Positions 6,471 to 62,400 of a DNA stretch of 64,000 nucleotides are shown one piece after another (position 1 is the stretch's first letter; each line of letters opens with the position of its first letter). Below the pieces are notes generated by a model. The model worked only from the letters and a program-made list of their open reading frames with translations, made no database searches and was not told the origin of the DNA. Source of the stretch: Lepidostoma basale (Eukaryota > Arthropoda > Insecta > Trichoptera > Lepidostomatidae); NCBI GenBank assembly GCA_022606425.2, contig JAHDVF020000164.1, forward strand, positions 62,001 through 126,000, written 5' to 3'. Made by a program: the position numbers and the translations under genes.

Positions 6471-6510
6471 TAGCTGTCGATGCCAAAGAAACCCTGGCGA
6501 AATCGGTCGC
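6471..6510 (+). ncRNA. Hammerhead-like motif, PLE-A family
   Basis: The order is CTGTCGATGCC, then a loop, then GGCGAA and ATCGGT-C: box 1, stem II GCC/GGC, box 2 and a decayed stem III palindrome (ACCGGT in better copies). Best copies are at 44442-44484 and 46211-46252. Confidence 0.45.
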
Positions 6511-7254
6511 GGCAAAATTATTTTATTATTTATAATTTTACTAACGCGCCGCCACTGGCGTGTTTTCTTATTCAAAAGTTAAGCGCTAAAATATATAAGA
6601 TCCTGAAATTTAAAACACTCATCGACGCGATACAAAAAATCTCCCCGTTCGTTGAATTTTTATCGATTTCCCCGACATCGCGTTTCGATTAATCTCGATC
6701 CTTGGGTGCTCTAACCTCCACAGATTGACTCGACTTGGAGTCCGGGGATTAAACGACGCTCGTAATTTATATCGAAGGGCGTCGCGACGCCAAACTAAAC
6801 AAAATGTATTCGTGTACAAGGAGATGCATAAATTCAACGGTATTTGACCCCGAGAAAACATATATTTTTAAAAGTTATTACTAATAATATTTTTTTAAAT
6901 ATTCTTCGCTTTGCTAGTTTTAATCCAATGGTATCGTTTGCAGCAAAGCGTAACATTTCTTTTGCTGGTTCTTGGGATGCCACTTGGGTCTTTAATGTGG
7001 TAGTTTCCCGTTGCTTTCCACATTATTCGCTTTCCACACGAAAAATATTAACTATTCATATTTCTTCTTCTTCTATCTTCGTTTCCTCATTGCTGAGGGT
7101 CGTGATCTATGGAACTGCCCATGTATCCCTTTCCTATATTCAATGGATTATCCATTAATTATTTACAACAATGTATTAGGCCACGTAAATAACATTAAGT
7201 ACCCTATTTTGCTATTTTACCTCGTGTATAAAAAGAACAACGCATTTACGTAAA

Positions 7255-7435
7255 TTTATATTAATTAATATTAATGTCTGTTTTCTAGAAGTTTTTTTTA
7301 AATTTATGTGAAAGACCTGTTTCACCTGTATTAGGCATTGTGACACATTTAAAAATGCCTTAGACAGGCTAAACATGTCATTTTTATATCATATACCAAA
7401 ACTTCTAGAAAACATACGTTATTGTTCGTATTAAT
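7255..7435. repeat. PLE-1 foldback with inverted hammerhead-like cores
   Basis: 'gtctgttttctagaagtttt' at 7274 and its reverse complement near 7395 bound a minus core (7311-7345) and a plus core (7352-7383, 'gccttagacaggctaaacat', ending ACATGT-C). Another partial copy is at 7575-7710. Confidence 0.55.
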
Positions 7436-8164
7436 TATGTCATATTTCGCTAAATTTGGTTATCAAATTTTCATAAACATTTATTGTAGTTCATTAATTC
7501 ATAAATAATAAATACGACTTTTATAAAACGTACTTTATCATTTAAAATCAATCATTAATTTTTCATAAACATAATAATATAATTTGATAATGCCTTAGAA
7601 GGGTAAAACATTCATTTAATCTAAAAAAATATAAAAGAAGACAGACGTTTTCATTTTTATTAATTATTTTATTTGGAGTTTTACATAAATGTTAAAAAAC
7701 AATACGTACTTTACCTTTATTATTAAATTTTAAATACAGTTTTTTTATGCTTGAAAATGGTTTAAGCAATATAATTTTATAATTTTGCAGTCGGTTTACG
7801 TTCAAAATGTTTTGTTGTTCAGTGTACTCAGAGCGAAGTGTGTTCAGTAGCTATTTTGGTATTATTTATTCGCTGTAGCAACATGGCGTGTTTGCCTTGG
7901 TAATGTACGGTAATGTTTAACCGTCTATGACTTCAAATTTTCAAAGGAATGCCTACACAATGTCCTAATTAATTTAAAAGGTTGTGTAAACAGGGCTCTA
8001 TTTTTTTACTTCTGAATTAAACAACTGAAATAAAATAATAATGTTCGCTCAAAACATTGAAAGTTGTTTTCTTTCGTATGATTATATAAATAAATGTTTT
8101 CTCTATTGTTTTGTTACATTGCGCCCCTTTACACGTATTAAATAAAATATAAAATTTATTAATG

Positions 8165-8636
8165 GTTCCAAAATGGTCGTTGTAAATGGAGTTATAGTTC
8201 CAACCATTATATATAAAAGCGAAGCATGGAGCTGGCAGAAGAAGCATGAGAGCAGAAAACTGCGGTAGAGATGGGATCCCTTGTACGTATGTGTAGTAAA
8301 ACGATTTACGCCAGAGTTTCAAATGCTGATATTAGGAAGGAATTTACAGTCGAAGAAAATATAATGACAAAAAATATGAAAGGATCACTGCGTTGGTTTT
8401 CACATGAGGCGTATGGATGAATAGATAATGGTTAAGAAAGGACTGAGAAAAAAATGACAGAACCAAGTGAATAAAATATTAAAGGTCGGCCATGTTAGAA
8501 GTCGAAAGAATCGACGTAGGTGTATATAACTTGCTGTATAAATGTGGAGGAAGCTAGAGAGCTGTGTCAAGATAGAGTTGTGTGGCGGTTGATTCTCTCT
8601 GTCAACCCTTTCGGGAAAACGGTCTGATGCTTTGAT
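8165..8636 (+). mobile_element. LINE-A copy, strongly decayed
   Basis: It runs from 'aaaatggtcgttgtaaatgg' to 'cctttcgggaaaacggtctg', covering the whole C-terminal block with several frameshifts. This is one of the oldest LINE-A copies here. Confidence 0.7.
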
Positions 8637-8690
8637 GCTGTGTCTTTATTTCGATAACTTAAGACAATAAATGGAAATAGTAAACATGAC

Positions 8691-9079
8691 GGTATTATTT
8701 GCAAACCCGGCAAACTCCACCAACAATCAAAAGTGAGATATGAATTGGGTCTTATTCATAATACATTTGCACACAATTTTTATTGATTTTCGGTTTCAAA
8801 TTCGGCTTCATTCTGAAGAATTTTGCTATTTAAATATAGGGTTTGTTGCAAACACGGCAACCTCCACTTGACAAAGCTGGCAAACTCCAAAATGAAATTC
8901 ATCATTTTACTTTAATTATCAACAAAATGATGATTATTTCATGGCTGATTTCTTTTAAAATACTAACTGGTTGAGATGAAAAAAATAAATATCGTAATAA
9001 AGCGCACTTTATTAGCGTATCAGTTTTTTGCGATTTACTCAAAACATCTAATGATTTGCCAGGTTTGCAACTAATACCC
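8691..9079. mobile_element. MITE with ~26-bp inverted ends
   Basis: The left end GGTATTATTTGCAAACC and the right end (reversed) GGTATTAGTTGCAAACC match. 'cggcaaactccac'-like blocks recur inside at about 8850 and 8880. No coding sequence. Superfamily not assigned. Confidence 0.55.
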
Positions 9080-9359
9080 TCACATATCGATTTATTTAAT
9101 TATTATTTAAAATGATCTTCCATCAAGAGATTTCAATAAAATCACTTGATTATCTTAGTTACAATTATTTATTCCAAATGCTCAAACAAATATTATAAGA
9201 AAACCTTTTGGTATCCTGAACAATTCGGTTGTTTGGGGGCATGTTATTCTCGATACGGTGACAAAGCACCTACTCAGAAAATAAATGATAAGAGGTTTTT
9301 TCAATCCATTTCAAACGTCCACGTGAATTATCCAACATGGGTCCGGTGGAAATCAAAAT

Positions 9360-9650
9360 GTCAGATTAGGAACTAGATCAAGCTTCCCGGCGTCCATCTT
9401 GGACGGGCACTTGAAGGACTAATGTAATTACCGGAGGGATGAAACCATTACGGCGGTGGGCGGGGCGCTGACGGCGCTCGTACACCCGAGTCTGGCGTCG
9501 GCGCCGCGACGCTCTGAACAAACTTGCGAGTATGTGTGGCGCTGAAGGTTTAGTGTTACAAGTTTAATTATGCAACATGACTTAATTATTACTCTACAAA
9601 AATATAACAAACTTTTCACAAAGCTTGGTAAAATCTGACTTTTCATATAA
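9360..9650. other. GC-rich patch of unknown role
   Basis: 9375-9545 is clearly GC-richer than its neighbours and has open minus-strand frames (for example one ending PPTAVMVSSLR), but no recognisable domain or safe splice pair. It could be an unidentified exon, a regulatory patch or part of a GC-rich mobile element. Confidence 0.3.
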
Positions 9651-9689
9651 TTAATATATTTATTTTATTGAAGATGGCAATTAGATATA

Positions 9690-9785
9690 ATATGTGATAT
9701 TGTATATTTTGCCCATCCTTCAACCTATTCCTGTCCACTCCTGGACAAAGACCTCCTCCATTCGCTTTCACGCCAGTCTGTTGCC
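9690..9785 (-). mobile_element. LINE-B 3'-end scrap
   Basis: The minus strand matches the end of LINE-B at 45117-45686: R-M/W-x-E-x-x-F/L-V/S-Q-E-W-T-G, then the stop. It is followed by PLE-1 sequence (9810-9960). Confidence 0.55.
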
Positions 9786-9809
9786 ACTTTAGAGTTGATA
9801 TTGTGAATG

Positions 9810-9965
9810 ATAGATTTTTTATTGTTTCTTGAACAATGATGTAAAACTCCATATTAAATAATTAATACGAATAAAAACATTAGTTTTTTTTAGAAGTGAG
9901 AATAGAATTAATAATCTATTAAATTATATTCAATATGAAGTTTGACACCATTGTCAAATGAACAA
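9810..9965. repeat. PLE-1 fragment
   Basis: 'ttgtttcttgaacaatgatg' is followed by 'taaaactccatattaaataa' and 'acgaataaaaacattagttt', the outer end of PLE-1. No ribozyme core. Confidence 0.5.
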
Positions 9966-10563
9966 TTAATTAAATATAACTATTCTAATTGTAGTCTTAA
10001 CATAAACCTTATTATGTAATGTTTGGAATTAAAATGATATTTTTTTTACTAAGTTCGAATTAATTTTGCAGAATTGGGAACTTTTAGAATGATGTGAGAA
10101 ATATATTGAAGATAATGTATTAAGATTTGCTTGAAGATTACGATCTATGAAATCAATTTATTTTAATTATTTTTAAAGAGCTCAATTTAAGCAGTCCATA
10201 AACGGAAAGAAGTCTAAAAAGTCCAAAAATATTAGTTTTTAAACTTTTTTGGACAACTAACCCCTTTTACAAGAAAAATGTCCATCACCCCCTTTTTCTT
10301 AATACTGAAACCAAATATAAGAATACTGTTTCACAATATCTCTATTTTACCTCTTTATTTATTGAAACATGAGTTATTGTGAGATTTCCAAATAACGAAT
10401 AATACAAAATGCAGAGCCAAGATAGATGGAACTCACAGATAAACTCACGGTGTCACAGTCTTCTTTCAGTCAATCTTTATTCAAGAAATAAAATAAAAAA
10501 ACTGAAAGTATTAAATGTGTTATTCACAACATCAGTAAACTAGACGTGTTTAATTGTTTGTAA

Positions 10564-10608
10564 CACCCGATGATGCCAACATATGTTGGCAAAACAGCTG
10601 TCGCGACA
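10564..10608 (+). ncRNA. Hammerhead-like motif, PLE-6 family
   Basis: CCGATGA is followed by a 6-bp stem GCCAAC/GTTGGC, then AAA and the palindrome ACAGCTGT-C. Stem II is perfect; box 2 has GAA changed to AAA. Relatives are at 48324, 48482 and 59343. Confidence 0.6.
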
Positions 10609-10864
10609 CACTCATATGATTAAATTGTGATACGTAATGACAGTAACAAACTAACACATTTAATAAATACTCTTATGAACAAACGTTGTTTTTTTCACAT
10701 TTGTGTTTATTTTTCTTGACATCGCACGCTTAATAGAACACTGGCTTAACTCATTAAAGTTTTGCTCAATCCGACTTGAGTCGGTGTTTTAAAAAAACAG
10801 TCGAAAAACACCTACAAATGGATAGCGGTAACATTGTGAACGATTACCGTACGTATGAATGGTA

Positions 10865-11170
10865 GCGTTAACATTGTGAAAATTAGATGGATAGCGTTAA
10901 CACAAGCCTCTGTCTAATGTTAATTCAATTATGACCTAAACCATTATCGGTCAGTTTACTTTTAAGCATGTGATATGTTTCGAAGGCTTTAACATACACC
11001 TTCATCATCGGGAGAATGATTCAAATGTTTATATCTAAACTGAACTCAAAAGTGCAAAAAAACGGTGTTTTAATTCATAAAAATCGTCAATACTTTTAAA
11101 TAATCTTCCCATCCTTCAAATATTTTTATTAAACACGTTACGTTGCCCATCACAGCTGTCAAGCGTTAAA
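10865..11170 (-). repeat. PLE-2 repeat with hammerhead-like core
   Basis: The core at 10975-11013 (minus) reads CCCGATGATGAAGG, a longer loop, then GCCTTCGAAACATAT. Flanking 'tgaactcaaaagtgcaaaaa' and 'cggtgttttaattcataaaa' blocks match 34405-34710 and 61120-61350. Confidence 0.55.
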
Positions 11171-11199
11171 ATACAAAAAAGCTCGACTTAAAGCCCGGG

Positions 11200-11560
11200 A
11201 AACTTGATTACGCACTAAGCCAGTTTTTTCATTTGTTAAGCCCGCGCGTCAAATAAAATTGAAAGCGATACCTATTTCTGCGGGTACTTATTTTTTATCC
11301 TGAAGTAGTCTAAGCCAATAGCCGTGGATGCCTAACAACCTCAGATTGAGTTACCACAGGCAAACGGAAATTTTTGAATATTTGATTTTATTCCCGGGGC
11401 CTTCATAAAAAGGCGAATTGACTTTTATTTTAAACCGGAGAAAGCGTCCCCGACAGTTGACTTTAATGTTTCAAACATACGTTTGGCTGGTAGTTTAATA
11501 TTGATGAAATTTTCTGTTGCCGGGGAAAGAATAAGCGTATTCTTTTTACGTTAAACAAAT
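11200..11560. other. Apparently non-repetitive intron, no gene seen
   Basis: It is moderately GC-richer, with no match to other parts of the window and no splice-flanked frame. Confidence 0.35.
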
Positions 11561-11639
11561 AAAACCATCATCACGTTTCTAGAGCTGGTCACACTGTTTT
11601 GTTCTGAAATACTTTGTAAAATAAATTTAAATTAATAAC

Positions 11640-12223: not shown

Positions 12224-12266
12224 ATCCAGTCTGTCGATGCCAGCGAGCCTGGCGAAACGGGTCGAA
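12224..12266 (+). ncRNA. Hammerhead-like motif, PLE-A family
   Basis: CCAGT-CTGTCGAT is followed by the stem GCCAG/CTGGC and then GAAAC. Stem III has one change (ACGGGT for ACCGGT). The downstream block 'aatgaacttccatcaagaga' is shared with 44500-44600 and 48100, defining one repeat family. Confidence 0.6.
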
Positions 12267-12279
12267 GTAGTAAGTTTTA

Positions 12280-14580: not shown

Positions 14581-14716
14581 TTGCACAGTGTTAACGCCTT
14601 AACCTGAAAACCAATGTTTAATAAAATTATCGTATGAAGCATTCACTTTGTGGTTAGACATTTAAAAAATATATTATTTGTATTTCAAATAAAATAAAAT
14701 ATAATAAAATTACTCA

Positions 14717-14825
14717 ACTTTGTTTTTTCACCACTATGCGGCTATATTAATTGCCGACTAGTTTCGCTTGTACCCAAGCTTCCTCAGGGCTTTATATAAC
14801 CGCATAGTGGTGAAAAACAAAGTAC
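14717..14825 (-). ncRNA. Complete hammerhead ribozyme fold in a long hairpin
   Basis: The minus strand core (14790-14753) reads GCC-CTGAGGA-A-GCTTG-GGTA-CAAGC-GAA-ACTAGT-C-GGC. Every hammerhead part is there: box 1 CTGANGA, a 5-bp stem II with a 4-nt loop, box 2 GAA, palindromic stem III ACTAGT, the cleavage-site C and a GCC/GGC stem I. Stem I extends for roughly 20 more bp through arms 14731-14752 and 14791-14810 with a few mismatches, and the inverted repeat reaches 14717 and 14825. One extra A separates box 1 from stem II, as in the other families here. Cleavage would fall after the C at plus position 14756. Hammerheads with very short stem III are known from Penelope-like retroelements. 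Activity is inferred, not shown. Confidence 0.72.
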
Positions 14826-14829
14826 AGTG

Positions 14830-15875
14830 TTCTTATTTTATTTTATTTTAAATACAAATAATAATGTTTATTGACAAAAAAACTGCTTAAAAGCAAACTA
14901 TAATTGTGTGGATTAATTTTTTTTTTCTAGTAACATCTCTATAATATAATTCATTTTATAATATTGTAGGAATCTCTAAATATAATACTACGGAAGTTAG
15001 GTTAAAAACTTGGGCATAAAAAAATAGTGGAATGCCGAGGCGTAAATATGAGAAATATATTAAATACATGAAAGTTTCAAATTCTGACAAGTTGTCAAAA
15101 GAAGGTACATAGTTAAGGTATTTCATATCCGTAATAAACTCGTACGAGTCTGCTTTTATATATTATATCTGAATGGTTCATTTCTTGTTCTATGAACATA
15201 AAACAAACCTTTCCGCTGATGGACACATTGACACGCCACGAGATACCTCGGGTGTACCTCAGGGACACGTTTTGGTTCACTTAGTTTTATTAAAAAAAAC
15301 TTTCGAAACAGGATGAATGGTGGCGGTTTCAATGATAAACGACTTTAGATGGAAGCTGTTTGTAAAAACATCCTTTTACGAAATGATAATAGATTTACTT
15401 TAGATGATTTATCATTAGAGAACCCCGGGAGCTTAAATATATCTACCTAAAAGTTTAAATGTTGTGTTAAGAAACAATTTTTAGATATTGAAGCATTCAT
15501 TTTATAGGCACATCAAATACTGGTATAAAATTAAGTTAGATCATTTGCCAACAAACCAATTTTAGTACTTTCGTAATATTGGAGTAAAATTTTGATCAAT
15601 AACTCAAATCAGAAAATTAATATCTCATAATTTTCGAGGAACGAAAGTACACGATGGTATATAATCAAGTTTATAAATTTTATCATTCATCAATAACATG
15701 GATCAAAGTAGTTTTAAATATGTTGAAATATATTTTTGAAAAATAACATTTGAATCAAAAAATAAAAAAATATGTACAGATGTCTCTGAAGAATTAATTT
15801 AATCATAGCCTCATAATAAAAAGGCCCATTTTAAATTGAATAAATATTTTAAAACTTGATTAAATCATAAACAAC
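14830..15875. other. AT-rich intron, no gene seen
   Basis: Short frames only; no splice-flanked coding pattern and no obvious element ends. Confidence 0.35.
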
Positions 15876-22705: not shown

Positions 22706-22876
22706 TTGTGATGATCTCTACACATTAATACTGTGAAAATACATGAATATGATTTTTTATGGTTCAAAACATTGTAATTCTTTCGAAATACGTATAGATA
22801 TAAGTCAATAAAGCGAAATAGAAAAAAAATACGAAAAACTGCACCTGATGTGGGGTTGACCTGACCAAAGGGTTGA

Positions 22877-22916
22877 ATGACATGTTTCGCCTTGCTAGGC
22901 ACTATCAAATCAAATA
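22877..22916 (-). ncRNA. Hammerhead-like motif, PLE-1 family
   Basis: The minus strand reads TTTGATAGTGCC, the loop TAGCAA, GGCGAA, then ACATGT-C. Stem II GCC/GGC and the stem III palindrome are intact. Box 1 has TTGATAG instead of CTGATGA. Confidence 0.5.
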
Positions 22917-23977: not shown

Positions 23978-24695
23978 TCTAACTAACTAACTAACTAACC
24001 ATCACGCCGTCTCCCCGAAGGGGTAGGCAGAAAGAATGGACTGCCACACTTTTCTTTCCTGACATATTTCTCTCGCTTCCTCAACATTCATACATCGTGT
24101 CATGCACGCGCGTCGATTTCTCTGACTCCTCACATGGCCGACATTCAATATTTGATTTATTTGATCGCGCCACGTTTTCCTCGGTCTTCCTCTATTTCTG
24201 GTTCCATTTAAATCATTAACATATAATTTTTTTACCATTCTTTCTTCATTCATTCTTTCCATATGTCCAAACCATCTTAATGATCCTTTCATTATTTTGT
24301 TCATGACACCATCATTCGCACCGCATTCACTTCTTATATTTTCATTCGACACTCTATCATACACAGAGTATCCACACATTCGTCTAAGAGATCTCATTTC
24401 TACTGCATTTATTCTACTTTCATCCTTCTTTTGCCAGTTCCATGCTTCGCTTCCATACATAAGGGTCGGTAGAAGAACACCATTGTGCACTGCCATTCTA
24501 GCTTTTTTGGATAGGTTTTTGTTTGCGATGACAACTTTAAGTGCACCATTCACTTTGTTGCCTGCCCCAACCCTTCTTTCAATATCCCTCTCCACTCGCC
24601 CATCTCTTGTAAACATACTACCTAAATACTCGTACACAAACTCAACTACTTGCTCCAAGTTTTCACCATTCACGCTAATGTTGCAGACTGTCGAA
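23978..24695 (-). mobile_element. LINE-A copy with the longest continuous frame
   Basis: The frame 24673-24002 (223 codons) covers the part after the reverse transcriptase catalytic site: MNGENLEQVVEFVYEYLGSM, RDIERRV-AGNKVNGALKVV, ARMAVHNGVLLPTLMYGSEA, RRMCGYSVYDRVSNENIRSE, WFGHMERMNEERMVKKLY, RGRPRKTWRDQINQI, and WQSILSAYPFGETA. A two-residue insertion sits in EFVYeyLGSMF. The palm motif itself is absent (5' truncation). The tail is (TTAG)n. It is the reference for subfamily a. Confidence 0.88.
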
Positions 24696-24744
24696 TTCTA
24701 CATTTGTATTTTAGTTTATGAGATTGAAATGGGTCGCATTTATA

Positions 24745-26179: not shown

Positions 26180-27020
26180 TGAGTTAAATATATCATCAGA
26201 ATTATTTTTGCACACTTAATGTTTTAATAAAACGTTAGAGCTGTACTTTTTTTATTACATTTATTTAATGTATTTTTTTATGTACAATTGCATTCAACCC
26301 CTATTTTTTTAAAAACATTTTTATTCATTTAGTTACTAATATATCTTGTAGATAACGTTATACTACGTAAATTGACATTTGAAATAAACAATTTGAAACA
26401 CAAATAACATTTTTATAAATAATTCAAATAACGTAAAAATCTTATTATTGCTCTCCTGTAAAATTAATAAAAAAGCAGTTGGGACCTTTTGCCAAATCGG
26501 TACCGAAATAAAGGAGGTCTACGACGGATATAGACTGATGATGGTGACGAAATCTGCGTTTAGTAATTATAAAGTGACTATATTAATAGTTGTTTCTCTA
26601 TAAATAAAACACTTCAACAAGAAACGACTGTTATTTTACCAATGTACTTGCCGATAGCAAAAATGTAATATAATAAGCATTATTTATTTGTTGTTTCACC
26701 TCCACCTTTCTCTAAGGAATTTATGTAACGATTTTCATAGAAAATAAATATCTGATACCCAGTTTTATTGATAAAATGAAATATATTGGGGTAAATGGGG
26801 GAAGTTGGTAAGCTATGACCAATGTCAAGAGAGTAAAATAGGAATTTATTCCATTTTCAAAATTTTACACATCCTTGTAAAACGATGCTATGCAATTTAG
26901 CCTGATTTATATTATAATATCTTATATATACGCCATACTTTGTATTGTTATGATGCTTTATGTCTCTTTTTCTTTTTTAATATACTTTGTATAAACAACA
27001 CTTATATTTAAAAAAAAATT
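26180..27020. other. AT-rich intron, no gene seen
   Basis: Only an inverted non-LTR scrap at 26460-26520 is recognised. Confidence 0.35.
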
Positions 27021-27024
27021 ACAT

Positions 27025-27062
27025 ACACATGTTTCGGACAATCAGTCCTTCAGTGATTCATA
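27025..27062 (-). ncRNA. Decayed hammerhead-like motif beside Penelope endonuclease
   Basis: The minus strand reads CACTGA, the stem GGAC/GTCC, GAA, and the palindrome ACATGT, then G instead of C. Box 1 is incomplete. It lies about 180 bp after the endonuclease relic in the same orientation, as expected in a Penelope-like terminal repeat. Confidence 0.4.
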
Positions 27063-27239
27063 CATAAAGATACATAGGTATTTAAAATATTATGAAATTG
27101 TTTTAAAATGTTATAATGATTTATTTTGGAACATTAATGCTTTTGTTGTAACAAATATTATGATTCAATCTAAAATTTTAAATAATAAATTAAAGTTCTT
27201 ATTGGGGTTCAGGTAATTACTTACAACAAAGGAAATAAA

Positions 27240-27490
27240 TCAAAGATTGGACTTGACGTTTAATTTATTTGATTATTTATAATATATTCTTTATTTTTAA
27301 TTGCTTTTTTAATTTCTAAAATTTCGAGATTGCTCAAAGTTATACTCGTATATCTTTATTAAATGAATGATATTTTTCAATGAGGTGGTTAGCAAATTCA
27401 GAAAAAATATTATTAGACACATCTTATGTGCTCTTTTATTCTCATTTAAAATTACGCCTTGTTTTACCAATACAAAAAGATTTATAATAA
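27240..27490 (-). pseudogene. Penelope-like GIY-YIG endonuclease relic
   Basis: Penelope-like elements carry a reverse transcriptase plus a C-terminal GIY-YIG endonuclease. The minus strand, in three frames, reads SFCIGKTRRNFK, LRIKEHIR or its equivalent, NNIFSEFANHLIEKYHSFNK, and then TLSNLEILEIKKAIKNK. The I-G-K-T-x-R-x-F-K...R-x-x-E-H...N-H-L-I-E-x-x-H-S-F order is that of the Penelope endonuclease. At least two frameshifts. It parallels 31503-31680. Confidence 0.7.
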
Positions 27491-30214: not shown

Positions 30215-30335
30215 CTTGGAATTGAAAGCTGTTTATGTTCCACTTCAAGTTGTTAAATATTGTTATAGAATAAAAATATTGACCACGACGTGTTTCGGAG
30301 GTGACCTCCATCCACAGGTGTAAATGTATGACAAA
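30215..30335 (-). ncRNA. Hammerhead-like motif, PLE-3 family
   Basis: Core 30285-30322 on the minus strand: CAC-CTGTGGATGGAGG, loop, CCTCC-GAA, then ACACGT-C and GTG. Stem II is 5 bp or more, and stem I is CAC/GTG. The adjoining 'accttggaattgaaagctg' block is shared with 13923 and 14560. Confidence 0.55.
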
Positions 30336-31405: not shown

Positions 31406-31502
31406 ATAAATTGAATATTTCTTCTAAAAGACAAGGAAGATAAATTTTCTCATTCAAGGAAGATAAACTTATAAACTGAAATGTAATGATCGCTCATTTT
31501 TT

Positions 31503-31680
31503 TATATAGGGAAAACATGGCGAAATTTTAAATTAAGAATAAAAGAGCACATAAGATGTCTCTCTAATAATATGTTTCTAATTTGCTAATCACCTCATTG
31601 AAAAAGATCATTCATTTAATATTGAAAATGGCGTTGAAATTTTGCATGTATAGTAAATTCGAATGACGGAGTTATAAGCG
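31503..31680 (+). pseudogene. Penelope-like GIY-YIG endonuclease relic
   Basis: Frame one reads FYIGKTWRNFKLRIKEHIRC then LSNN. After a frameshift it reads FANHLIEKDHSFNIENGVEI then LHV. Y-I-G-K-T, R-x-K-E-H and N-H-L-I-E-x-x-H are the conserved endonuclease positions of Penelope-like elements. It is immediately followed by decayed sequence and the LINE-A copy at 31735. Confidence 0.78.
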
Positions 31681-34404: not shown

Positions 34405-34710
34405 CTTCAACGAAGCTTATTCCAGAATGAAACACTTCAAAATTAAAATAAATATGTTATCCATTTTTGAGTTTATTTTTCTTGACATGTTTCGAAGGCT
34501 ACCTTCATCATCGGGAGACCGATATAATCTAACCAAAATTATGATAAACAGACTGCAAGAACCTAGAATTATATATAACATGTGTTAGTTTACTTGGCAA
34601 GTACTAGGGTGTTAGCAATGGACATATCAATGATTCACTATTCATAAAATATCGTCATTATGGAATTCCACAGTGTTAACACCTTCAGTTTATCTAAATT
34701 AAATATTTTC
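34405..34710 (-). repeat. PLE-2 repeat with hammerhead-like core
   Basis: Core 34484-34517 on the minus strand: CCCGATGA-T-GAAGG-TA-GCCTTC-GAA-ACATGT-C. Stem II has 5 bp and stem III is a perfect palindrome. The outer blocks 'tggaattccacagtgttaac' and 'gagtttatttttcttgacat' define the family. Confidence 0.65.
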
Positions 34711-35084: not shown

Positions 35085-35255
35085 TTGTTTAAAATCCACT
35101 TTATTTCAAGGCAGTAGCGCCAACCGGTTTTACTTTGTAGTGAGCTTCTTCAGGGCTATACAAAAAATAGTCTGTATAGCCCTAAGGAAGCTCGCTAAAG
35201 AGTGAAACCGATCGGTTTTACTTATTTTTAATAAAGTGGTTTTTAAACAAATTAT
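35085..35255. ncRNA. PLE-4 foldback with two opposed hammerhead-like cores
   Basis: Minus core 35160-35113: AGCC-CTGAAGA-AGCTC...AGT-AAA-ACCGGT-T-GGC. Plus core 35174-35220: GCCCTAAGGAAGCTC...GAGTGAA-ACCGAT-C. They lie head to head between inverted 'aaaatccactttatt'/'aataaagtggtttt' ends. The same family is at 61520-61700. Confidence 0.6.
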
Positions 35256-41097: not shown

Positions 41098-41365
41098 TTA
41101 TTGTTTCTTGAACTTTGATGTAAAAATGCATATGAAATAAATAATACATATTAAAGCGTCTGTTTTCCAAAAGTTTTTGATAACTTATGAAAATGACACG
41201 TTTTGCCTGTCTAAGGCATTATCAAATGTCCAATTGGAGACAACTGGCCTGTAGATACATTTGATAATACATTATACATTCGACACGTGTCATTATCATA
41301 AATTATAATAAAACTTCTAATAAATATATGATTCATTCGTATTAACATTCTGTGTGCAAATAAGG
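41098..41365. repeat. PLE-1 foldback
   Basis: The minus core 41189-41226 (TTTGATAATGCC-TTAGAC-AGGC-AAA-ACGTGT-C) is followed by a decayed inverted arm ending 'atgattcattcgtattaaca'. Confidence 0.5.
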
Positions 41366-44441: not shown

Positions 44442-44484
44442 CACCAGTCTGCCGATGCCTGCGAGCCTGGCGAAACCGGTCGCT
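44442..44484 (+). ncRNA. Hammerhead-like motif, PLE-A family
   Basis: CCAGT-CTGCCGAT-GCCTG-CGAGC-CTGGC-GAA-ACCGGT-C-GCTG. Stem I CAGT/GCTG, stem II and stem III ACCGGT are all paired (stem II with one mismatch). Box 1 is off consensus (CTGCCGA). Confidence 0.65.
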
Positions 44485-45017
44485 GTTTAAATAAAGACAA
44501 AAGTGGAAGTAGTAAAAAAAACATCGTTTTATTTAATCATTATTTCAAATGAACTTCCATTAAGAAATTTCAGTAAAATCATTTGATAATCTTAAAAACA
44601 TGTTTTTAATAGCAATGAACTAACTGTTGGGATGCTGAAATCTTTCCAAAATGTTACGATTTTATAACATCTGCATATAGTATGGTATTCAGTAAATATA
44701 ATTTTACTCGTCAATAAGCATACCCTACTCTGCGATAACAAGTTGGAGTCGTGAAGCGGAACTGATAAAAAGGAATAAACATGGAAATTTGTATATTGCT
44801 CGGCGCATAAATAAAGGACGCTAGCGGAAAATGTGCAAGTTGCAGTGCCGACTCGAGAAAATTATTATTAAAAAATATCATATAGTCGCATATATGTCCC
44901 AGTTACGTTTCGCTACAATAGTTAATCTAAAAATAGAACCAGACGGGCGGAAATGCGTAATTCGTACAATTAAAAAAAAAATAACTGAGCCAAATTGGTC
45001 ATTATTAACGCATAAGT

Positions 45018-46210: not shown

Positions 46211-46330
46211 GGACCAGTCTGTCGATGTCAGCGAGCCTGGCGAAAACGGTCAATTTTCAAAATAAAGACAAAAGTGAAAGTTGTTAAAAAACATCGTTTT
46301 ATTTAATAATTATTTAAGATAAAAACTGTT
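46211..46330 (+). ncRNA. Hammerhead-like motif, PLE-A family, beside Penelope RT
   Basis: Core 46211-46252: CCAGT-CTGTCGAT-GTCAG-CGAGC-CTGGC-GAA-AACGGT-C. Then 'aagacaaaagtgaaagttgt' and 'aacatcgttttatttaataa', the shared family body. It ties this motif family to a Penelope-like element. Confidence 0.65.
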
Positions 46331-46814: not shown

Positions 46815-46883
46815 GAAAAAGAACGGTCCTTTGATAATGCCTTAGACAGGCGAAACATGTCATTTACATAAAATATAATACAC
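46815..46883 (+). ncRNA. Hammerhead-like motif, PLE-1 family
   Basis: Core 46829-46866: TTTGATAAT-GCCT-TAGAC-AGGC-GAA-ACATGT-C. Stems II and III are intact; box 1 is TTGATAA. The LINE-A copy at 46884 begins directly after the family end. Confidence 0.62.
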
Positions 46884-47329: not shown

Positions 47330-47445
47330 GTGTTACGCTGGGCTCGCTGGCATTGATAGACTCGACTGTTCGGTCTGTCGATGCCAGCAAACCTATCGAA
47401 ACCGGTTACTCTCGAAATAAAGATAAATATGGAAGTATTTATATT
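47330..47445 (+). ncRNA. PLE-A hammerhead-like motifs, opposed
   Basis: Plus core 47371-47408 (CTGTCGAT-GCCAG-CAAAC-CTATC-GAA-ACCGGT-T) and a partial minus copy at 47335-47360 ('gggctcgctggcattgatag'). Stem II of the plus copy is damaged. Confidence 0.5.
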
Positions 47446-47680: not shown

Positions 47681-47794
47681 TAGATTAGAATAAAATAAAT
47701 GTTTTTTTATTGTGTTTTATTTTCCCTGCAAGTCAACATTAAACATTAAATAGGTTATGTATAACAATAATACACTGGTTAAATTTGTATATTA

Positions 47795-47955
47795 AGTACC
47801 TTACTGTTTACAACCACAAACCGGTTTCGCCCCCAACAGGGCTACGTCAGGGTTACAAAATATACTAAACTAACTAGGTTTAGTTTATTTTGTAACCCTG
47901 ACGAGCTCCGGCGGGAGCGAAGCCGGTTGGTGGTTGTAAACGATAAAGTTGTATA
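47795..47955. ncRNA. PLE-5 foldback with two opposed hammerhead-like cores
   Basis: Minus core 47856-47821: ACC-CTGACGT-A-GCCC...GGGGC-GAA-ACCGGT-T. Plus core 47891-47932: ACC-CTGACGA-GCTCC-GGC-GGGAGC-GAA-GCCGGT-T-GGT. The plus copy has the canonical CTGACGA box 1 followed directly by a 5-bp stem II. The arms are inverted repeats joined by 'aaactaactaggtttagttt'. Confidence 0.65.
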
Positions 47956-48049
47956 CCATATATCCAAATTTTACCAGTGTATTATTACAATATTTGCGAC
48001 ACCACAAATTAAGTGCATCATACGAAACTATATTAGATAGATTGCTGAA

Positions 48050-48284: not shown

Positions 48285-48560
48285 AATAACTTTGTTTTTG
48301 TATCACAATTGTATTTTATTTTACGCGACATCTGTTTTATCAACCTATGTTGACATCATCAGGTGTTGCAATAATATATTAAATGTCAAATTTTCGTGAT
48401 TTTTCGAATCTTTATATGTATGAACAAATATACATAAAGATTCGAAAAATCACGAAAATTTGACATTTCATATATTATTCTAACATCTTCTGATGTCAAC
48501 ATAGGTTGATGAAACAGCTGTCGCGTAAAATAAAATACAATTGTGATACAAAACAAATTA
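48285..48560. ncRNA. PLE-6 foldback with two opposed hammerhead-like cores
   Basis: Near-perfect inverted arms meet at about 48425. Minus core 48366-48324: CCTGATGA-T-GTCAAC-ATA-GGTTGAT-AAA-ACAGATGT-C. Plus core 48482-48526: TCTGATG-TCAAC-ATA-GGTTGA-T-GAA-ACAGCTGT-C. Each arm keeps what the other has lost. Confidence 0.68.
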
Positions 48561-52141: not shown

Positions 52142-52503
52142 TTAATAGCAAATTTCTAAGAATTTTCCAGGTATGAAAATTAACGTAATAAGCTTTTGTC
52201 AATAACAAGTAAATACTAATACAAACAATCACAATAAACGGAAGGGAATACCGGATGCAGAATAACTAACTTCGCTGAAAATACTCGCACATTAAGAATA
52301 GGACTTAATGTTAATTTGATTTTTGCTATAATATGGGTTGCTGTTTATGACTTTCTTTATCTCTAGAGCTTCCAAATTATTTAGTCTATTGCCTATACAG
52401 TTTTTATGAATAAGTTGAATGAATGATCAGATTCTACAAGGTGGTTGGAATTTTTTCTTCTCTAGTTCTAGCTTTGTATATTTTATTACGAGTATAAAGA
52501 ACA

Positions 52504-53036
52504 TAACTAACTAAACTAACTTACCATCACGCCGTCTCCCCGGAGGGGTAGGTAGAAAGAATGGAACGACACACTGTTCTGTCCTGACATACGTCTCTCG
52601 CTTCCTCTACATTCATACATCTTGTCATGCACGCACGTCGATTTTTCCGACTCCTCACGTGACCGACATTCAATATTTGATTGATTTGATGGTGCCACGT
52701 TTTCCTCGGCCTTCCTCTATTTCTAGCTCCGTTCACGCCGTTTACATATACCTTCTTTACCATTCTGTCTTCACTCATTCTTTCCATGTGTCCAAACCAT
52801 CTTAATGACCCTTTCCTTATTTTGTTCATAACACTTTCATTCGCACCACATTCACTTCTTATACTTGCATTTGTCACTCTATAATAAACAGATTTGTCAC
52901 ACATTCGTCTTAGAGATCTCATTTCTACTGCATTTATTCTACTTTCATCCTTCTTTTGCCAGTTCCATGCTTCACTTCCATACATAAGGGTCGGCACAAG
53001 AACACCATTGTGCACTGCCATCTTAGCTTTTTACTA
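52504..53036 (-). mobile_element. LINE-A copy with continuous 164-codon frame
   Basis: Frame 53021-52527: MAVHNGVLVPTLMYGSEAWN, RRMCDKSVYYRVTNASIRSE, CGANESVMNKIRKGSLRWFG, RGRPRKTWHHQINQI, and CRSILSTYPSGETA. (TTAG)n tail, one of the better-kept copies. Truncated 5' at 'ctaaaaag'. Confidence 0.86.
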
Positions 53037-57069: not shown

Positions 57070-57240
57070 AAACAGTTTATAATTAATACGAATGAAAACG
57101 TCAGTTTTCTTGAAGATTTATTAAATTTTATGGGAATGACATGTTTCGTCCTTCGAAGGCATTATCAAATGATGATGTTTAACATTTGATAATGCTTTAG
57201 AAGGACGAAACATGTCATTCTCATAAAATATAATAAATTT
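57070..57240. ncRNA. PLE-1 foldback, the best-kept hammerhead-like pair of its family
   Basis: Minus core 57170-57134: TTTGATAAT-GCCTT-CG-AAGGAC-GAA-ACATGT-C. Plus core 57184-57220: TTTGATAAT-GCTTT-AG-AAGGAC-GAA-ACATGT-C. Near-perfect arms meet around 57175. Confidence 0.65.
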
Positions 57241-57508: not shown

Positions 57509-57769
57509 ATTGTCTATTTAATTTATGTTCCACGAATCCACCGTAAAACATAATAAAACTTCTATAAACTGACGTTTTCATTCGTATTAATTATTTAATA
57601 TGGAGTTTTACATCATTGAGATGATTAATTCATAAAAACGGCGCTCTATAAATTATCCAATTTATTATTATATTATTGTTCAAGTAACGATAAGTAAACA
57701 GTTTATATATTATGCATATTCATATTATAATTTAAATGGGCCACTCTATAGCGTGGACCCTCTTCCCTA

Positions 57770-58110
57770 TGATGGACACTAGATAGATATTTCATAGCCC
57801 GGAGGAATCTGAAAAACATGCCCGGAATGCCGAGCGGGCGGACGGCCCTAAAGAGATATTGACAGACCCTAAAAGTTAAAATTCTTGAGAATTTTCCAAA
57901 TTGTCCGAAGTTCGGGAGGAGCGTGAAGCGAATATATTGCCCGACGTTCGTCTTTCATCTATGAATCCTATTTTGCTCTTACAGTGAACCACACCAAGTT
58001 ACAAACATTTTGTTTCCTTGAGGGTGCATACAAATAAGTGTAAGGTAATAATTTTCAGAGAAAACTATAAGTTTCTTCTATATTGATCTTCACATTGTTT
58101 TTTGGGTTCG
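57770..58110. other. GC-richer non-repetitive patch, no gene seen
   Basis: 'atgccgagcgggcggacggc' and neighbours do not recur in the window. No frame with splice signals. Confidence 0.3.
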
Positions 58111-58174
58111 CATTTGTAGAACTACACTTTGTATTTTTTTTTTAAATTGAATATTCCAATCACCTTTGGTAAGC

Positions 58175-58682
58175 AAGCAAAGATGGCAGTACACAATGGA
58201 GTACTAGTGCCAACTCTCATGTATGGAAGTGAAGTTTCGAGCTGGCAAAAGAAGAATGAAAGCAGGATAAACGCCGTAGAAATGAGATCACTAAGAAGAA
58301 TGTGCGGGAAAACGTTGTGTGATAGAATACCGGGCGATGAAATAAGAAAGAAATGCAAGGCAGATGACTGCATAATGGGATAAAATTAAAAAAGGATCCC
58401 TGAGATGGTTTGGACACAAAAAACGATTGGATGAAAGTAAAATATGTAAAAAGTTGTACACTAGCAGCGTGAGTGGAAAAAGAAGCCGAGGACGACCGAG
58501 AAAAACATGGCATGACCAAATTAATCAATTACTAAAAGGTGGTCACTTTCGAAGTCGGAATAATCGACGTAGTGAATGTAGATGAAGCCCGAGAGGTATG
58601 CCAGGACAGAGCATTGTGGCGATCCATCTTCTCTGCCTACCCTTCCGGAGAAATGGTGTGATGGTTAGTTAGTTAGTTAGTT
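58175..58682 (+). mobile_element. LINE-A subfamily c copy, (TTAG)n tail
   Basis: MAVHNGVLVPTLMYGSEVSS, RRMCGKTLCDRIPGDEIRKK, a frameshift at 58380, KGSLRWFGHK, RGRPRKTWHDQINQLLKGGH, then 'ctacccttccggagaaatgg'. Nearest to 1211-1785. Confidence 0.82.
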
Positions 58683-58721
58683 ACCTTTGGTAAAGGAAAT
58701 TTCAAGAAGTATTATTACATT

Positions 58722-59220
58722 TTAACTAACTAACCATCACGCCGTCTCCCCGGAGGGATAGGCAGAAATAATGGACCGCCACACTGTTCTGTCCTGACAT
58801 ACTTCTCTTACTTCCTCTACATTCATACATCTTGTCATGCACGCACGTCTATTTGCATTTCATATTTGATTGATTTGATCGTGCCACGTATTCCTCGGCC
58901 TTTCCCTATTTTTAGCTGCTTTAACGTCGTTTACATATATTTTCTTCACCATTCTCTCTTCACTCATTCTTTCCATGTGTCCAAACCATCTTATTCACTC
59001 TTTCATTATTTTGTTCATAATACTTTCATTCGCACCGCATTCACTTCTTGCATTTGACACTCTATCATATACAGATTTATCACACATTCGTCTTAGAGAT
59101 ATCATTTCTACTACATTTATTCTACTTTCATCTTTATTTTGCCAGTTCCATACTTCTCTTCCATACATAAGAAAGAACACCATTATGCACTGCCATATTA
59201 GCTTTTTTGTATAAGCTTTC
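58722..59220 (-). mobile_element. LINE-A copy
   Basis: From the (TTAG) tail to MYGREVWNWQNKDESRINVV, with several small indels (GTLM missing). Close to 52504-53036. Confidence 0.78.
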
Positions 59221-59342
59221 CATTAAATTTATTGGTTAGGCTATCTATTGTTTTGTCTTAAAGATTATGATACTTCAACATTTTAAAATCTTTAAATCAA
59301 AAATAATGTTTTACTTATCACGATTTATTTTAATGAGTTTGT

Positions 59343-59390
59343 CACGACAGCTGTTTCGCCAACCTATGTTGCCGTCATCAGATGTTACAA
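59343..59390 (-). ncRNA. Hammerhead-like motif, PLE-6 family, consensus core
   Basis: CAT-CTGATGA-C-GGCAAC-ATA-GGTTGGC-GAA-ACAGCTGT-C-GTG. Box 1, box 2, the stem III palindrome and stem I (CAT/GTG, then TTGT/ACAA) are all present. Stem II has one G-T-type irregularity. Confidence 0.68.
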
Positions 59391-59499
59391 TCAAGAGTTG
59401 TTGTTGAATCCTAGCAAGAGTGGAAGTAATTCTTTAAAAACACTTTGTTATAAACCATATCCAACCTACGTGGTTGAGAAAAATTCAGCTATCTAAATG

Positions 59500-59670
59500 G
59501 TAAAAATTAAAATGCGGTATTATACCTCTGAGCTATGTTATGTATTATACGTAAATTAGTTGGCAGAGCAGTAAAGTAAACATGAGCTTGGCGAAACCGG
59601 TCGCTGTGGAAATAAAGAAAAAAGTGGAAGTAGTCCTTAAAAAAAACATTATTTTAAACAGCTTTCAACC
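59500..59670 (+). repeat. PLE-A fragment with half core
   Basis: 'gagcttggcgaaaccggtcg' keeps box 2 and stem III, while box 1 is lost. Similar fragments are at 60585-60740 and 60760-60900 ('tttacctctgaggta' blocks). Confidence 0.5.
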
Positions 59671-59690
59671 TACTTGGGTTGTGAAAAATT

Positions 59691-60550
59691 CAACAACAAC
59701 AACAACAAACCATCACGCCGTTTCCCCGCAGGGGTAGGCAGAGAGAATGGACCGCCACACTACTCTATCCTGGCACACCTCTCTAGATTCCTCCACATTC
59801 ATACATCGAGTCATACACGCACGTCGATTCTTCCGGCTTTTGACATGACCAACTTTTAATATTTGATTAATTTGGTCATGCCATGTTTTCCTCAGTCTAC
59901 CTCGACTCCTTACTCCATTTACATTGTTAACGTATACTTTTTTAACCATTCTTTCTTCACCCATGCGCTCCATATGTCCGAACCAACGAAGCGAACCTTT
60001 CATAATTTTGTTCATAATATCTTCTTTCGCTCTACACTCCTTCCTAATATCAGCATTTGAGATTCTGTCGTACATCGTTCTACCACACATACGTCTTAGG
60101 GACCTCATCTCTACCGCATTTATTCTGCTCTCATCTTTCTTCTGCCAGTTCCATGCTTCACTTCCATACATAAGGGTTGGAACCAGAACTCCATTGTGAA
60201 CGGCCATTTTCGCTTTCATTGATAAATTCTTGTTTCCAATAACTACTTTACTACTTTAAAGCTCCATTCACTTTGTTACCCGCATCAACCCTTCTTTCAA
60301 TATCACTGTTCGTTCGGCCATTCGCTGTGAACATGCTACCTAAATACACAAATTCTCTCACCTGTTCCAAGTTCTCTTCATTTACACTTATATTACAAAC
60401 TGTCATTTGCTCTTCCCTTTCAAAAACTAACACCTTTGACTTTCCGACATTCATCATTAAATCGTTCGACTTGCATACCTCATACCTTCTCGTCACCAAG
60501 ACTTGTAATTCGTCCGCACTATCCGCAACGAGAACGGTATCGTCCGCGTG
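59691..60550 (-). mobile_element. LINE-A subfamily b, longest copy, keeps RT catalytic motif
   Basis: It starts with a (CAA)n tail. Frame 60219-59713: MAVHNGVLVPTLMYGSEAWN, RRMCGRTMYDRISNADIRKE, CRAKEDIMNKIMKGSLRWFG, TWHDQINQILKVGHVKSRKN, WRSILSAYPCGETA. Past a small duplication/frameshift at 60220-60250, frame 60499-60251 gives MVTRRYEVCKSNDLMMNVGK, QVREFVYLGSMFTANGRTNS. Upstream the same frame reads ADDTVLVADSADELQ (about 60547), the A/YxDD catalytic motif of reverse transcriptase. Truncated just upstream of it. It shows what the shorter copies derive from. Confidence 0.88.
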
Positions 60551-60920
60551 TCCGGCCGCAATGGCCGCGTCCGCGTGTGAAAAATTCAGCGATCTAAATA
60601 ATAAAAATGCAAATGCGGTGTTTTACCTCTGAGGTACGTTATGAATTATACGTACATTAATTTGTTGGCAGCATTTACGTTAACACGAAACCGGCAAAAC
60701 CGGTCACTGTCGGAATTAAGATAAAAACGAAAGTAGTTCTTAATTTTTTTTATAATTAATATGGTGGCTGTGAAAAGTTCCACCATCTAAATAGTAAAAT
60801 TGTATGTGCGGTGTTTTACCTCTGAGGTATGTTGTGTACGTACAGCAGTTACGTAAACACGAGCCTCGCCACATCCTGAAAGTAGTTGGTTTGGAATAAG
60901 AGCAAGTTTGACAAACTCAC

Positions 60921-61072
60921 CCCGTCCTCGCGAAGTTGGCGATGTAGAGAATAAAAGCTTCGGATAGAGCCACTTCCGACTTTGTGTAATTCTTAGGAAA
61001 GTGGTTGAAGCCCTCCACGAGGGGCGCCCCGAATAGGTAAGGCAGCTCCTCTCCGTGTACTGTGCCCATCCG
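60921..61072 (-). CDS. Neuroligin, internal coding exon (esterase-like domain)
   Basis: Neuroligins are postsynaptic adhesion proteins with a catalytically dead cholinesterase-like ectodomain that binds neurexin. Read on the minus strand, a pyrimidine tract and CAG precede 61072 and a GTGAGT donor follows 60921. The 152-nt exon opens in frame with RMGTVHGEELPYLFGAPL and ends in YIANFARTG, with the last Gly codon split after two bases. The His of VHGEELPYLFG is at the position of the catalytic-triad His of cholinesterases and is retained in neuroligins. NYT (about residues 28-30) is an N-glycosylation sequon. The frame is uninterrupted and much GC-richer than its surroundings, so it looks functional. 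It joins in phase to the exon at 20742-20624. Neighbours on both sides are intronic repeats. A different cholinesterase-like adhesion protein is possible, but the HGEELPY-FGAPL string is most like neuroligins. No symbol is given because the paralogue cannot be told. Confidence 0.87.
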
Positions 61073-61119
61073 CTGAAAGAAGAAGAATAAAACGTTAGGT
61101 AATGATATATTTTAATTTT

Positions 61120-61350
61120 AGATAAACTTTAAGGCATTACCACTGTGGAATTCCATAATGACGAATTTTTATGAATTAAAACACTGTTTTTTCCACTTTT
61201 AAGTTTATTTTTCTCGAAATGTTTCTAAGGCTTACACATTCATCATCGGGAGAACGATATAAACTCATACTCGAAACATAAACGAGAAAAATAAACTCAA
61301 AAGAAAAATAAACTCAAAAGTGGAAAAAACAGTGTTTTCATTCATAAAAA
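61120..61350 (-). repeat. PLE-2 repeat with hammerhead-like core
   Basis: Core 61252-61214 on the minus strand: CCCGATGATGAA..., loop, CCTTA-GAA-ACATTT-C. Flanks 'gtggaattccataatgacga' and 'tgaattaaaacactgttttt' match 34405-34710. It lies 48 bp upstream of the neuroligin exon (61072). Confidence 0.6.
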
Positions 61351-61519
61351 TTCGATATATTTTATTTTGAGAACACAAGGTTCTATCTACAGTTCAAGTA
61401 TATTTTTAAAATATATAATAATTCTGTATATCAAAATATTCTAATTTATTTATTTATCCGTGATGCGAAGCAATTACTTGGTGGTTTGACATATTTAAAA
61501 ATAAAATTAAACGCTTTTT

Positions 61520-61700
61520 CACTTAGTATAAACCACTTTATTTGAGTTAGTAGCGCCAACCGGTTTCACTCTGAAGCGAGCTTCTTCGGAGCTACCTATA
61601 CACAAACTGTCTGTATAATACTGAGGTAAATATATAAGCTCGCTACAGAATAAAACCCGGATGGTGCTACTTACTCAAATTAAGTGGTTTATACTCCATG
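61520..61700. ncRNA. PLE-4 foldback with hammerhead-like core
   Basis: Minus core 61600-61553: AGCTC-CGAAGA-AGCTC-GCTTCA-GAGT-GAA-ACCGGT-T-GGC. The plus arm (61620-61665) is damaged. Ends 'ataaaccactttatttgagt' are inverted at 61677-61695. Confidence 0.58.
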
Positions 61701-61724
61701 AAAAAGTGATAAATTTAAAATAAT

Positions 61725-62400
61725 TAATTCGAAAAAAAACGTCAGTTTTTTAGAAGTTTTATTATATTTTATGAGAATGACATGTTTCACCCTTATGAGT
61801 CATTATCAAATGTGACGATACCTAAACTCGTTTCAGTTTATATACACTAGTAAATGGAGCAGAATATGGTAATTAACGAAAATTGATGTGAATTTGTAGA
61901 TTTTTAACAAAGAATTATTGGGTAGGTCCAGAAATATTGGAAAGTGTTTCTTGGAATTCGTTAAGAAATATTATGACAATGATATTATATAAATCAAAAA
62001 TGAATTATTGGAGGTAGGACGAAATATGAAAACAAATTCTAAGAATAACGTATTTTTACAAATTGTTTACAAATGATTTTACACATTTCAAGGTGACTAA
62101 TGATTCTAAGTATTTAATACAAAACAAAATCCAATGTTTCAGGACCTACCCATATAATTCTTTGTTCAAAATGTATAAAATCACATCAATTTTCGTTAAT
62201 TACCATATTTTGCTCCGTTTACTAGTTTATATAAACTGCAACGAGTTGAATTTTCGTCACATTTGATAATGCCTTAGAAGGACGAAACATGTCATTTCCA
62301 TAAAATATAATAAGAATTCTAGAAATTTATATTAAATTTCATTCGTATTAATTATTTAATATGGAGTTTTACATCATCGTTCAAGAAACAATAAACATTA
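61725..62400. repeat. Large PLE-1 foldback (~675 bp)
   Basis: Arms run outward from about 61960/62130. Inner parts 'ggtaattaacgaaaattgat' (61869) and 'atcaattttcgttaattacc' (62186) pair. A minus core is at 61817-61778 (decayed) and a plus core at 62260-62297 (TTTGATAAT-GCCTT-AG-AAGGAC-GAA-ACATGT-C). The ~170-bp loop has no recognised content. Confidence 0.62.

Follow-up and report, generated by a model that had tools for sequence, protein, structure and literature searches.

Short repeats in a Lepidostoma basale contig carry minimal type I hammerhead motifs that point to Penelope-like elements

The stretch of the Lepidostoma basale genome analysed here (64,000 nucleotides, assembly GCA_022606425.2, contig JAHDVF020000164.1, positions 62,001 to 126,000; hereafter the window) holds many short repeats in which a hammerhead-like box 1, a paired stem II, GAA, a palindrome and a C or T follow one another, along with coding remnants of Penelope-like elements (PLEs; Table 1). 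A preliminary description of this DNA had noticed the layout in at least seven repeat families between 6471 and 62297. By our count the window holds nine (A, B, C, D, E, F, G, H and K), and the four palindromes listed at the time, ACATGT, ACCGGT, ACAGCTGT and ACTAGT, all follow GAA there. The named stem II pairs are present as well: GCCAG/CTGGC (12225+), GCTTG/CAAGC (14750-), GCTCC/GGAGC (47892+) and GCCAAC/GTTGGC (10561+). The architecture is that of a minimal type I hammerhead whose helix III is a palindrome without a loop, and nearly all copies have a single additional A or U between A9 and stem II; both this extra base and the divergent head-to-head pairing of the copies had been missed. 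The CTGANGA-like box 1 is kept in some window families and altered in A, B, E, the window copies of H and the left K copy. The motifs do lie within the range first given, with weak covariance-model matches slightly outside it at 5239-5281 (E 0.56) and 62843-62899 (E 0.059). The latter, on the minus strand, reads CTGACGA ... GAA ACATGT C; its stem II is long and imperfect, and it is possibly a further family.

Both kinds of search that the preliminary description had proposed recover the motifs. A descriptor scan scoring box, stem II, palindrome and stem I, cut at a score of 14, found 16 window sites at or above the cut, against a mean of 0.98 and a maximum of 4 in 40 dinucleotide shuffles. A strict pattern without the extra base leaves a single good site in the window, 47898+, in the right K copy (47892+), which is exceptional in that the extra base is absent. 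A covariance model of 44 positions was built from 19 hand-chosen representatives, eight of them window copies; they comprise one to three per family from twelve families and are not a random sample. At E<0.01 it matched the window 22 times across eight families, with 14 of the matches outside the training rows, and the ninth family, F, appeared at E 0.016. In a control on IMG/VR (40 of 80 listed stretches, 353 kb, picked for containing the pattern letters) the best E was 0.03. An Rfam scan of the window yielded no hammerhead, neither at gathering nor at E up to 10.

The core is present in vast excess in the genome assembly (768.8 Mb, 1572 contigs). Exact matches to CTGANGA-N8..24-GAAACNNGTC number 16,880, and reading the pattern backwards gives 23; the family A tail has 7,669 exact copies against none reversed. 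Among the first 100 genome matches listed, which come from contigs 1 and 2 and are not a random draw, 92 are palindromic, compared with 10 of 80 IMG/VR matches to the same letters. In 70 of the same 100, a stem II of 4 bp or more begins after a one-base gap from the box, in none does it adjoin the box directly, and the base after the box is A in 58, T in 39, C in 2 and G in 1. As background, a 4-bp stem at either offset occurs in 0 of the 80 IMG/VR matches to the pattern letters. One genome copy (L021 1495-1538, minus strand) represents a family not seen in the window, with an imperfect stem II GGCAG/CTGAC and ACCGGT.

Covariation was examined in three sets of copies. When the 3' halves of stem II were re-dealt among the 59 distinct strings that were long enough, 207 of 236 cells proved paired in the observed arrangement against 157 ± 5, a value reached in 0 of 2000 shuffles. 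For stem I, 102 of 152 cells are paired against 61.6 ± 6.2 (again 0/2000) at 38 sites that have an intact or near-intact core and a stem II of at least 3 bp, related copies included. In the 19 representatives 84.6% of cells are paired, against 57.1 ± 2.4 in shuffled and 27-43 in slid controls, and the covariation score reaches 0.673, where shuffling gives 0.183 ± 0.029 and sliding no more than 0.141; the shuffles ignore relatedness, the slid controls respect it. Changes on both sides affect 66 cells, compared with 26.4 in the shuffles. Pair types show a weak excess (29 versus 24.7 ± 2.3; 31/500 shuffles) and pairs with any double change none (9 of 12 versus 8.7; 367/500 shuffles). The inner pairs of stem II take CG, AU, UA and GC, and the middle of the palindrome AU, CG and UA; in helix III, A15.1-U16.1 is found in 19/19 chosen rows, as is C or T after the palindrome. 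A real and selected hammerhead fold of stems I and II, proposed at the outset from base changes that keep pairing, is supported by these comparisons. Some low-scoring window sites are probably chance, which is what a mere resemblance arising in AT-rich repeats would produce, but the excess of 16,880 over 23 genome matches and the covariation controls leave that explanation virtually no probability for the repeats as a whole.

Is catalysis selected as well as the fold? The catalytic core CUGANGA ... GAA is intact in representatives of C, D, F, G, I, J and M, in the H copy of L173 and in a K-like copy at L171. Departures are found in A (U3-A8, box TTGATAA), B (at A6, CTGTCGA or CTGCCGA), E and window H (U4 to C, CCGANGA), the left window K copy (at A9, CTGACGT) and window G (CTGTGGA). 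The kinetics of an extra base were reportedly first described by De la Pena and Flores in 2001 for the viroid CChMVd. In the plus-strand hammerhead of this viroid an A between A9 and stem II (A10) moderately lowers the rate, a U raises it 3-4 fold, and C or G is majorly detrimental (PMC3705267). The preference for A or U in our copies agrees with the viroid kinetics, and this agreement hints, independently, at selection on catalysis in addition to the fold. In family A, U3 and A8 are present in 22 of 23 copies, in a search that left both positions free; a covarying switch from C3/G8 to U3/A8 is reported for several hammerheads found in nature, and pairs of this type have in vitro activity (PMC3088659).

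A rival reading accepts the identity of the elements and differs on function: the fold would be a binding site for the element protein or reverse transcriptase and self-cleavage would be vestigial. It would fit the hammerhead of Anolis Poseidon, which cleaved only with protein and whose cleavage mutants still inserted (PMC11167929), and also family B, which retains the fold without A6. Yet it is the catalytic residues that are conserved and not the stems alone, the extra base in 97 of 100 copies is one of the two that are tolerated or favourable for cleavage rate, and C3 and G8 of family A changed jointly and in a pair-preserving, naturally known and in vitro active manner. We thus hold a purely structural role to be unlikely, though by no means negligible.

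The copies are arranged in a characteristic way. Of 25 neighbouring pairs within 500 bp among the genome matches listed, 20 are divergent, three are same-strand and of the same family, and one plus-plus and one convergent pair join different families. Each of the 30 stretches examined contains an inverted repeat or palindrome, with spans between 123 bp and 1.6 kb, the case at L166 being part of a tandem array. There (L166 497-1037; C2:1099383-1099881) three family A units stand in direct tandem with 249-bp spacing, an exception to the head-to-head arrangement. The clearest copies carry about 40 bp extra at one end, a tail that would come from the start of the open reading frame (ORF), and the entire unit is flanked by a direct repeat of 10-15 bp. 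The duplication control covered 29 of the 30 stretches (L166 left out; L020, L022, L026 and L038 were inspected only in the first arm self-BLAST): direct flank repeats of at least 10 bp occur in 10/29 spans against 5.3% of mismatched flank pairs, and of at least 11 bp in 7/29 against 1.7%. In seven of the ten spans with a repeat of at least 10 bp, one repeat copy lies at most 2 bp from an arm, whereas its partner stands 35-43 bp away from the opposite arm. An ATG about 48-110 nt past the hammerhead opens a short peptide that recurs within a family, although many loci show none; these ORF-start peptides are MSNHKVNAS and MSNHQVIAS (D, H), MNFHQEIS (B), MEFYIIVQE (A), MEFHSVN (G) and MANIEE (F, I). 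In family A units (window 61718-62357 and L036) a TATA-like TATATAAA box was seen by eye about 27-28 nt upstream of box 1, a position that would put the hammerhead at about the expected RNA start.

Since short copies are mostly palindromes, some with end duplications, it could be argued that they are foldback elements or miniature inverted-repeat transposable elements (MITEs), DNA palindromes copied whole by a transposase, in which the likeness to a hammerhead is incidental. But a DNA palindrome does not require stems I and II to covary within one arm; moreover, the few copies whose centres were inspected by eye do not share one, the tail extends beyond just one of the arms, the length of the clear duplications ranges between 10 and 15 bp, and PLE coding is found inside arms, so we regard such an origin as extremely unlikely. 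The presence of a type I hammerhead in units some hundreds of bp long, and the one three-copy direct array at L166, could also recall animal retrozymes, short non-coding tandem repeats spread via circular RNA. Retrozymes are direct tandem repeats (PMC7229834), whereas the close neighbours here are overwhelmingly divergent, with only three same-strand pairs of one family, and PLE coding is attached; very little credence can be given to this possibility either.

The coding link is best seen at L031, where two identical hammerheads bound a head-to-head inverted repeat of 662 bp, 99.85% identical, and both arms encode a C-terminus with a GIY-YIG domain (PF01541, 23.3 and 24.8 bits, cutoff 22.6). 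Eleven protein relatives were found; P0007 matches RVT_1 above cutoff and GIY-YIG below it, P0004 matches GIY-YIG above cutoff and P0002 matches RVT_1 only weakly. Among solved structures there was no sequence match to the PLE C-terminus. A tblastn search with the L031 protein against 59 genome loci and the window gave PLE matches in 15 of the loci, and in 14 of these a same-strand motif lies behind the coding. With duplicates merged, the 14 loci represent ten separate genome places (L015, L019, L026/L027, L028, L029, L030/L031/L039 in both arms, L034, L035/L036, L169 in both arms, and L177) at which same-strand PLE coding ends 98-268 nt before a hammerhead of family F, G or I; the window shows the arrangement once. 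These data directly support that the carriers of families F, G and I are PLEs and bear out, for these families, the Penelope-like link that the preliminary description had raised. The readings as chance, MITEs and retrozymes were rejected on the genome counts, the covariation, the divergent pairs and the PLE coding.

With a probability of about 90%, therefore, the window repeats are in our view minimal type I hammerheads of several PLE lineages, many copies being 5'-truncated or consisting only of the pseudo-long-terminal repeat (pseudo-LTR). A number of observations weigh against this interpretation or parts of it. Three of the 16 descriptor sites (22009-, 49825+ and 34739-) are likely chance. 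Many copies are decayed, and 30 of the 100 genome matches have no 4-bp stem II. Stem I of family A is only about 2 bp long. Family B has U or C at A6, and because an A6C change in a phage hammerhead is reported with low activity (PMC3088659), its ribozyme may have little or no activity. In 13 of 29 spans, including four of the five window palindromes, flank repeats do not exceed 7 bp. Reverse transcriptase ahead of GIY-YIG is known only from homologues, and the best of them, P0007, has its GIY-YIG match below cutoff. At L010 the PLE coding is on the opposite strand only, and two PLE coding fragments of the window have no motif behind them (31449-31650 and 52256-52449). Families A, B, D, E and H are tied to PLEs by anatomy and by ORF-start peptides read by eye, and for C and K anatomy is the sole tie. 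Minimum-energy dimer folds of seven families pair the palindrome cleanly only in family I and are ambiguous in the other six, and in an in vitro PLE test cleavage was not required for insertion (PMC11167929).

How might such an element work? Read from the copies, its order would be a TATA-like promoter (seen in family A), the hammerhead, a leader of about 48-110 nt and the ATG with the first codons, with, in families F, G and I, a second hammerhead 98-268 nt past the point where the frame ends in GIY-YIG. Going by the literature, the RNA would be cut after the C or U that follows the palindrome. As a six-base palindrome without a loop cannot form a hairpin, helix III can pair only between copies; cleavage would thus probably take place when two copies pair via helix III, perhaps assisted by protein, and we find it likely that the hammerheads cleave as dimers in cells. 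Reverse transcription may start inside the ORF-start tail and prime on both target strands, which would leave head-to-head twins; a start in the ORF-start region would give short twins when the 5' pseudo-LTR serves as template, and priming on both strands is suggested by the Poseidon protein, which cuts and extends both strands in vitro (PMC11167929). A bolder proposal is that the helix III palindrome, besides its part in cleavage, holds two template RNAs together within a single particle, which would let priming occur simultaneously on the two strands of one target site and make the dimeric hammerhead the cause of the twin insertions. We consider it quite improbable; if true, ribozymes whose role has been called a mystery in reviews would gain a job in integration.

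Some further features of the window touch these repeats less directly. Three Rfam microRNA-precursor matches below gathering fall at 48365-48484 (the family C pair), 61180-61336 (the family E inverted repeat) and 35128-35207 (a family H pair). We rejected a microRNA reading, as these places are palindromes carrying hammerhead motifs; that such palindromes score as weak microRNA precursors in Rfam is a trap for microRNA annotation. A C-terminal frame resembling that of long interspersed nuclear elements (LINEs), RGRPRKTWHDQINQI...CMTRCMNVEE..., is present in several copies (1237-1854, 24002-24697, 52527-53030 and 59713-60255, all on the minus strand, and others), and there is a weak, below-cutoff RVT_1 match at 60251-60622.

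Table 1. Hammerhead motifs, ORF-start tails and PLE coding remnants in the window. E values of motif rows are those of covariance-model matches.
Feature	Position	Strand	Details	E value
Family D hammerhead	14750..14793	-	CTGAGGA-a-GCTTG ggta CAAGC-GAA-ACTAGT-C; stem I GCC/GGC; within palindrome 14672-14863; 47.1 bits	1.9e-11
Family D ORF-start tail	14626..14661	-	MSNHKVNASYDN; ATG 95 nt past cleavage C	
Family K, left half of head-to-head pair	47813..47856	-	box CTGACGT; palindrome 47766-47986; stem II GCCCT/GGGGC	3.1e-8
Family K, right half	47892..47934	+	stem II GCTCC/GGAGC; no extra base before stem II	1.4e-4
Family A (U3-A8 core), left half of head-to-head pair	57132..57174	-		4.8e-4
Family A, right half of pair with 57132..57174	57180..57222	+		0.0017
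Family A, left half of longer pair	61773..61815	-	TATA-like upstream sequence; palindrome 61718-62357	0.028
Family A, right half of pair with 61773..61815	62257..62299	+		1.5e-5
Family A motif	46825..46867	+		1.6e-4
Family A motif	22873..22914	-	TTGATAG core	0.0061
Family A motif, decayed	41189..41231	-		6.5e-4
Family H motif	61552..61595	-	CCGAAGA-a-GCTC/GAGT-GAA-ACCGGT-T; palindrome 61504-61716	4.4e-8
Family H ORF-start tail	61457..61492	-	MSNHQVIASHHG	
Family H, left half of head-to-head pair	35116..35159	-		1.2e-4
Family H, right half of pair with 35116..35159	35176..35219	+		4.4e-5
Family E motif	34478..34520	-	CCGATGA-t-GAAGG/CCTTC-GAA-ACATGT-C	5.3e-9
Family E motif	61210..61255	-	within inverted repeat 61162-61354	0.0082
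Family C, left half of head-to-head pair	48321..48368	-		1.9e-4
Family C, right half of pair with 48321..48368	48481..48528	+		0.0017
Family C motif	59340..59387	-	8-nt palindrome ACAGCTGT	3.2e-7
Family C motif	10561..10608	+	stem II GCCAAC/GTTGGC	1.3e-5
Family B motif, A6 changed	44443..44487	+	CTGCCGA	9.5e-9
Family B motif	12225..12269	+	CTGTCGA; stem II GCCAG/CTGGC; then ORF-start tail MNFHQEISVKSF from 12311	1.5e-8
Family B motif, decayed	46213..46257	+		4.4e-4
Family B motif, decayed	47369..47413	+		0.026
Family B remnant, weak	6468..6514	+	start of range first described	0.16
Family G motif	30281..30323	-	CTGTGGA; stem II GGAGG/CCTCC; stem I ACAC/GTGG	2.5e-9
Family F motif remnant	27018..27059	-	directly downstream of PLE coding remnant	0.016
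PLE C-terminal coding remnant	27227..27480	-	projected frame end ~158 nt before family F motif	6.6e-19 (tblastn)
PLE GIY-YIG coding remnant	31449..31650	+	no motif in following 600 nt	1.7e-17 (tblastn)
PLE C-terminal coding remnant	52256..52449	-	no motif in following 600 nt	0.002 (tblastn; 1.9e-8 with P0003)

The type of ribozyme is already known in PLEs. Many metazoan genomes hold thousands of minimal type I hammerheads, mostly dispersed and some in PLE pseudo-LTRs, and the PLE hammerheads, described as lacking helix III, may cleave as dimers and have been assigned no known role (PMC7761336, PMC6155905). Because minimal type I hammerheads of PLEs without helix III, possibly dimer-cleaving, are thus in print (PMC7761336), most of the novelty first claimed for these families falls away. 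The extra A or U, the abundant U3-A8 family and the link to twin insertions are possibly new, as set against the primary papers through reviews only. In the available text of the literature surveyed, none joins PLE hammerheads with head-to-head twins or treats them in moth or butterfly, a weak absence given that the primary papers on the small variants lie outside the survey; a monarch butterfly survey describes a PLE family of 9,901 copies in a text that, as far as available, has neither 'ribozyme' nor 'hammerhead' (PMC8848866). What the present genome adds is natural mutational data from a dozen families that are diverging and from more than 16,000 matches to the core, offering the extra A or U before stem II, a U3-A8 family, an A6-less family and covarying stems, in ribozyme units tied to head-to-head twin insertions that can be counted.

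Among known systems, the small PLE hammerhead variants (Cervera and de la Pena 2014; Lunse, Weinberg and Breaker 2017, via PMC7761336 and PMC6155905) share the type I core, the reduced or absent helix III, the pseudo-LTR location and the proposed dimeric cleavage. CChMVd has the same extra base (A10) between A9 and stem II (PMC3705267), in a single viroid RNA, whereas here it recurs across families. The satellite hammerheads of newt and axolotl, which are animal retrozymes, have a weak helix III (with a palindromic tetraloop in one axolotl class) and are reported to cleave better as dimers, but they form direct tandem repeats with circular RNA and no PLE coding (PMC7229834). Anolis Poseidon PAc has a hammerhead near the ORF start, an internal start of reverse transcription near the ORF start, and cutting and extension of both target strands, but it is described as tandem, with no head-to-head twins mentioned in the available text (PMC11167929). 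In Adineta vaga, Penelope elements occur at low copy number, against thousands of motif copies here, and the word 'ribozyme' is absent from the available text. They otherwise share with the L. basale repeats the inverted head-to-head pseudo-LTRs, the one-sided tail into the ORF start and short duplications, of 8-10 bp, and head-to-head is the most frequently observed arrangement in Adineta Penelope (PMC3846280).

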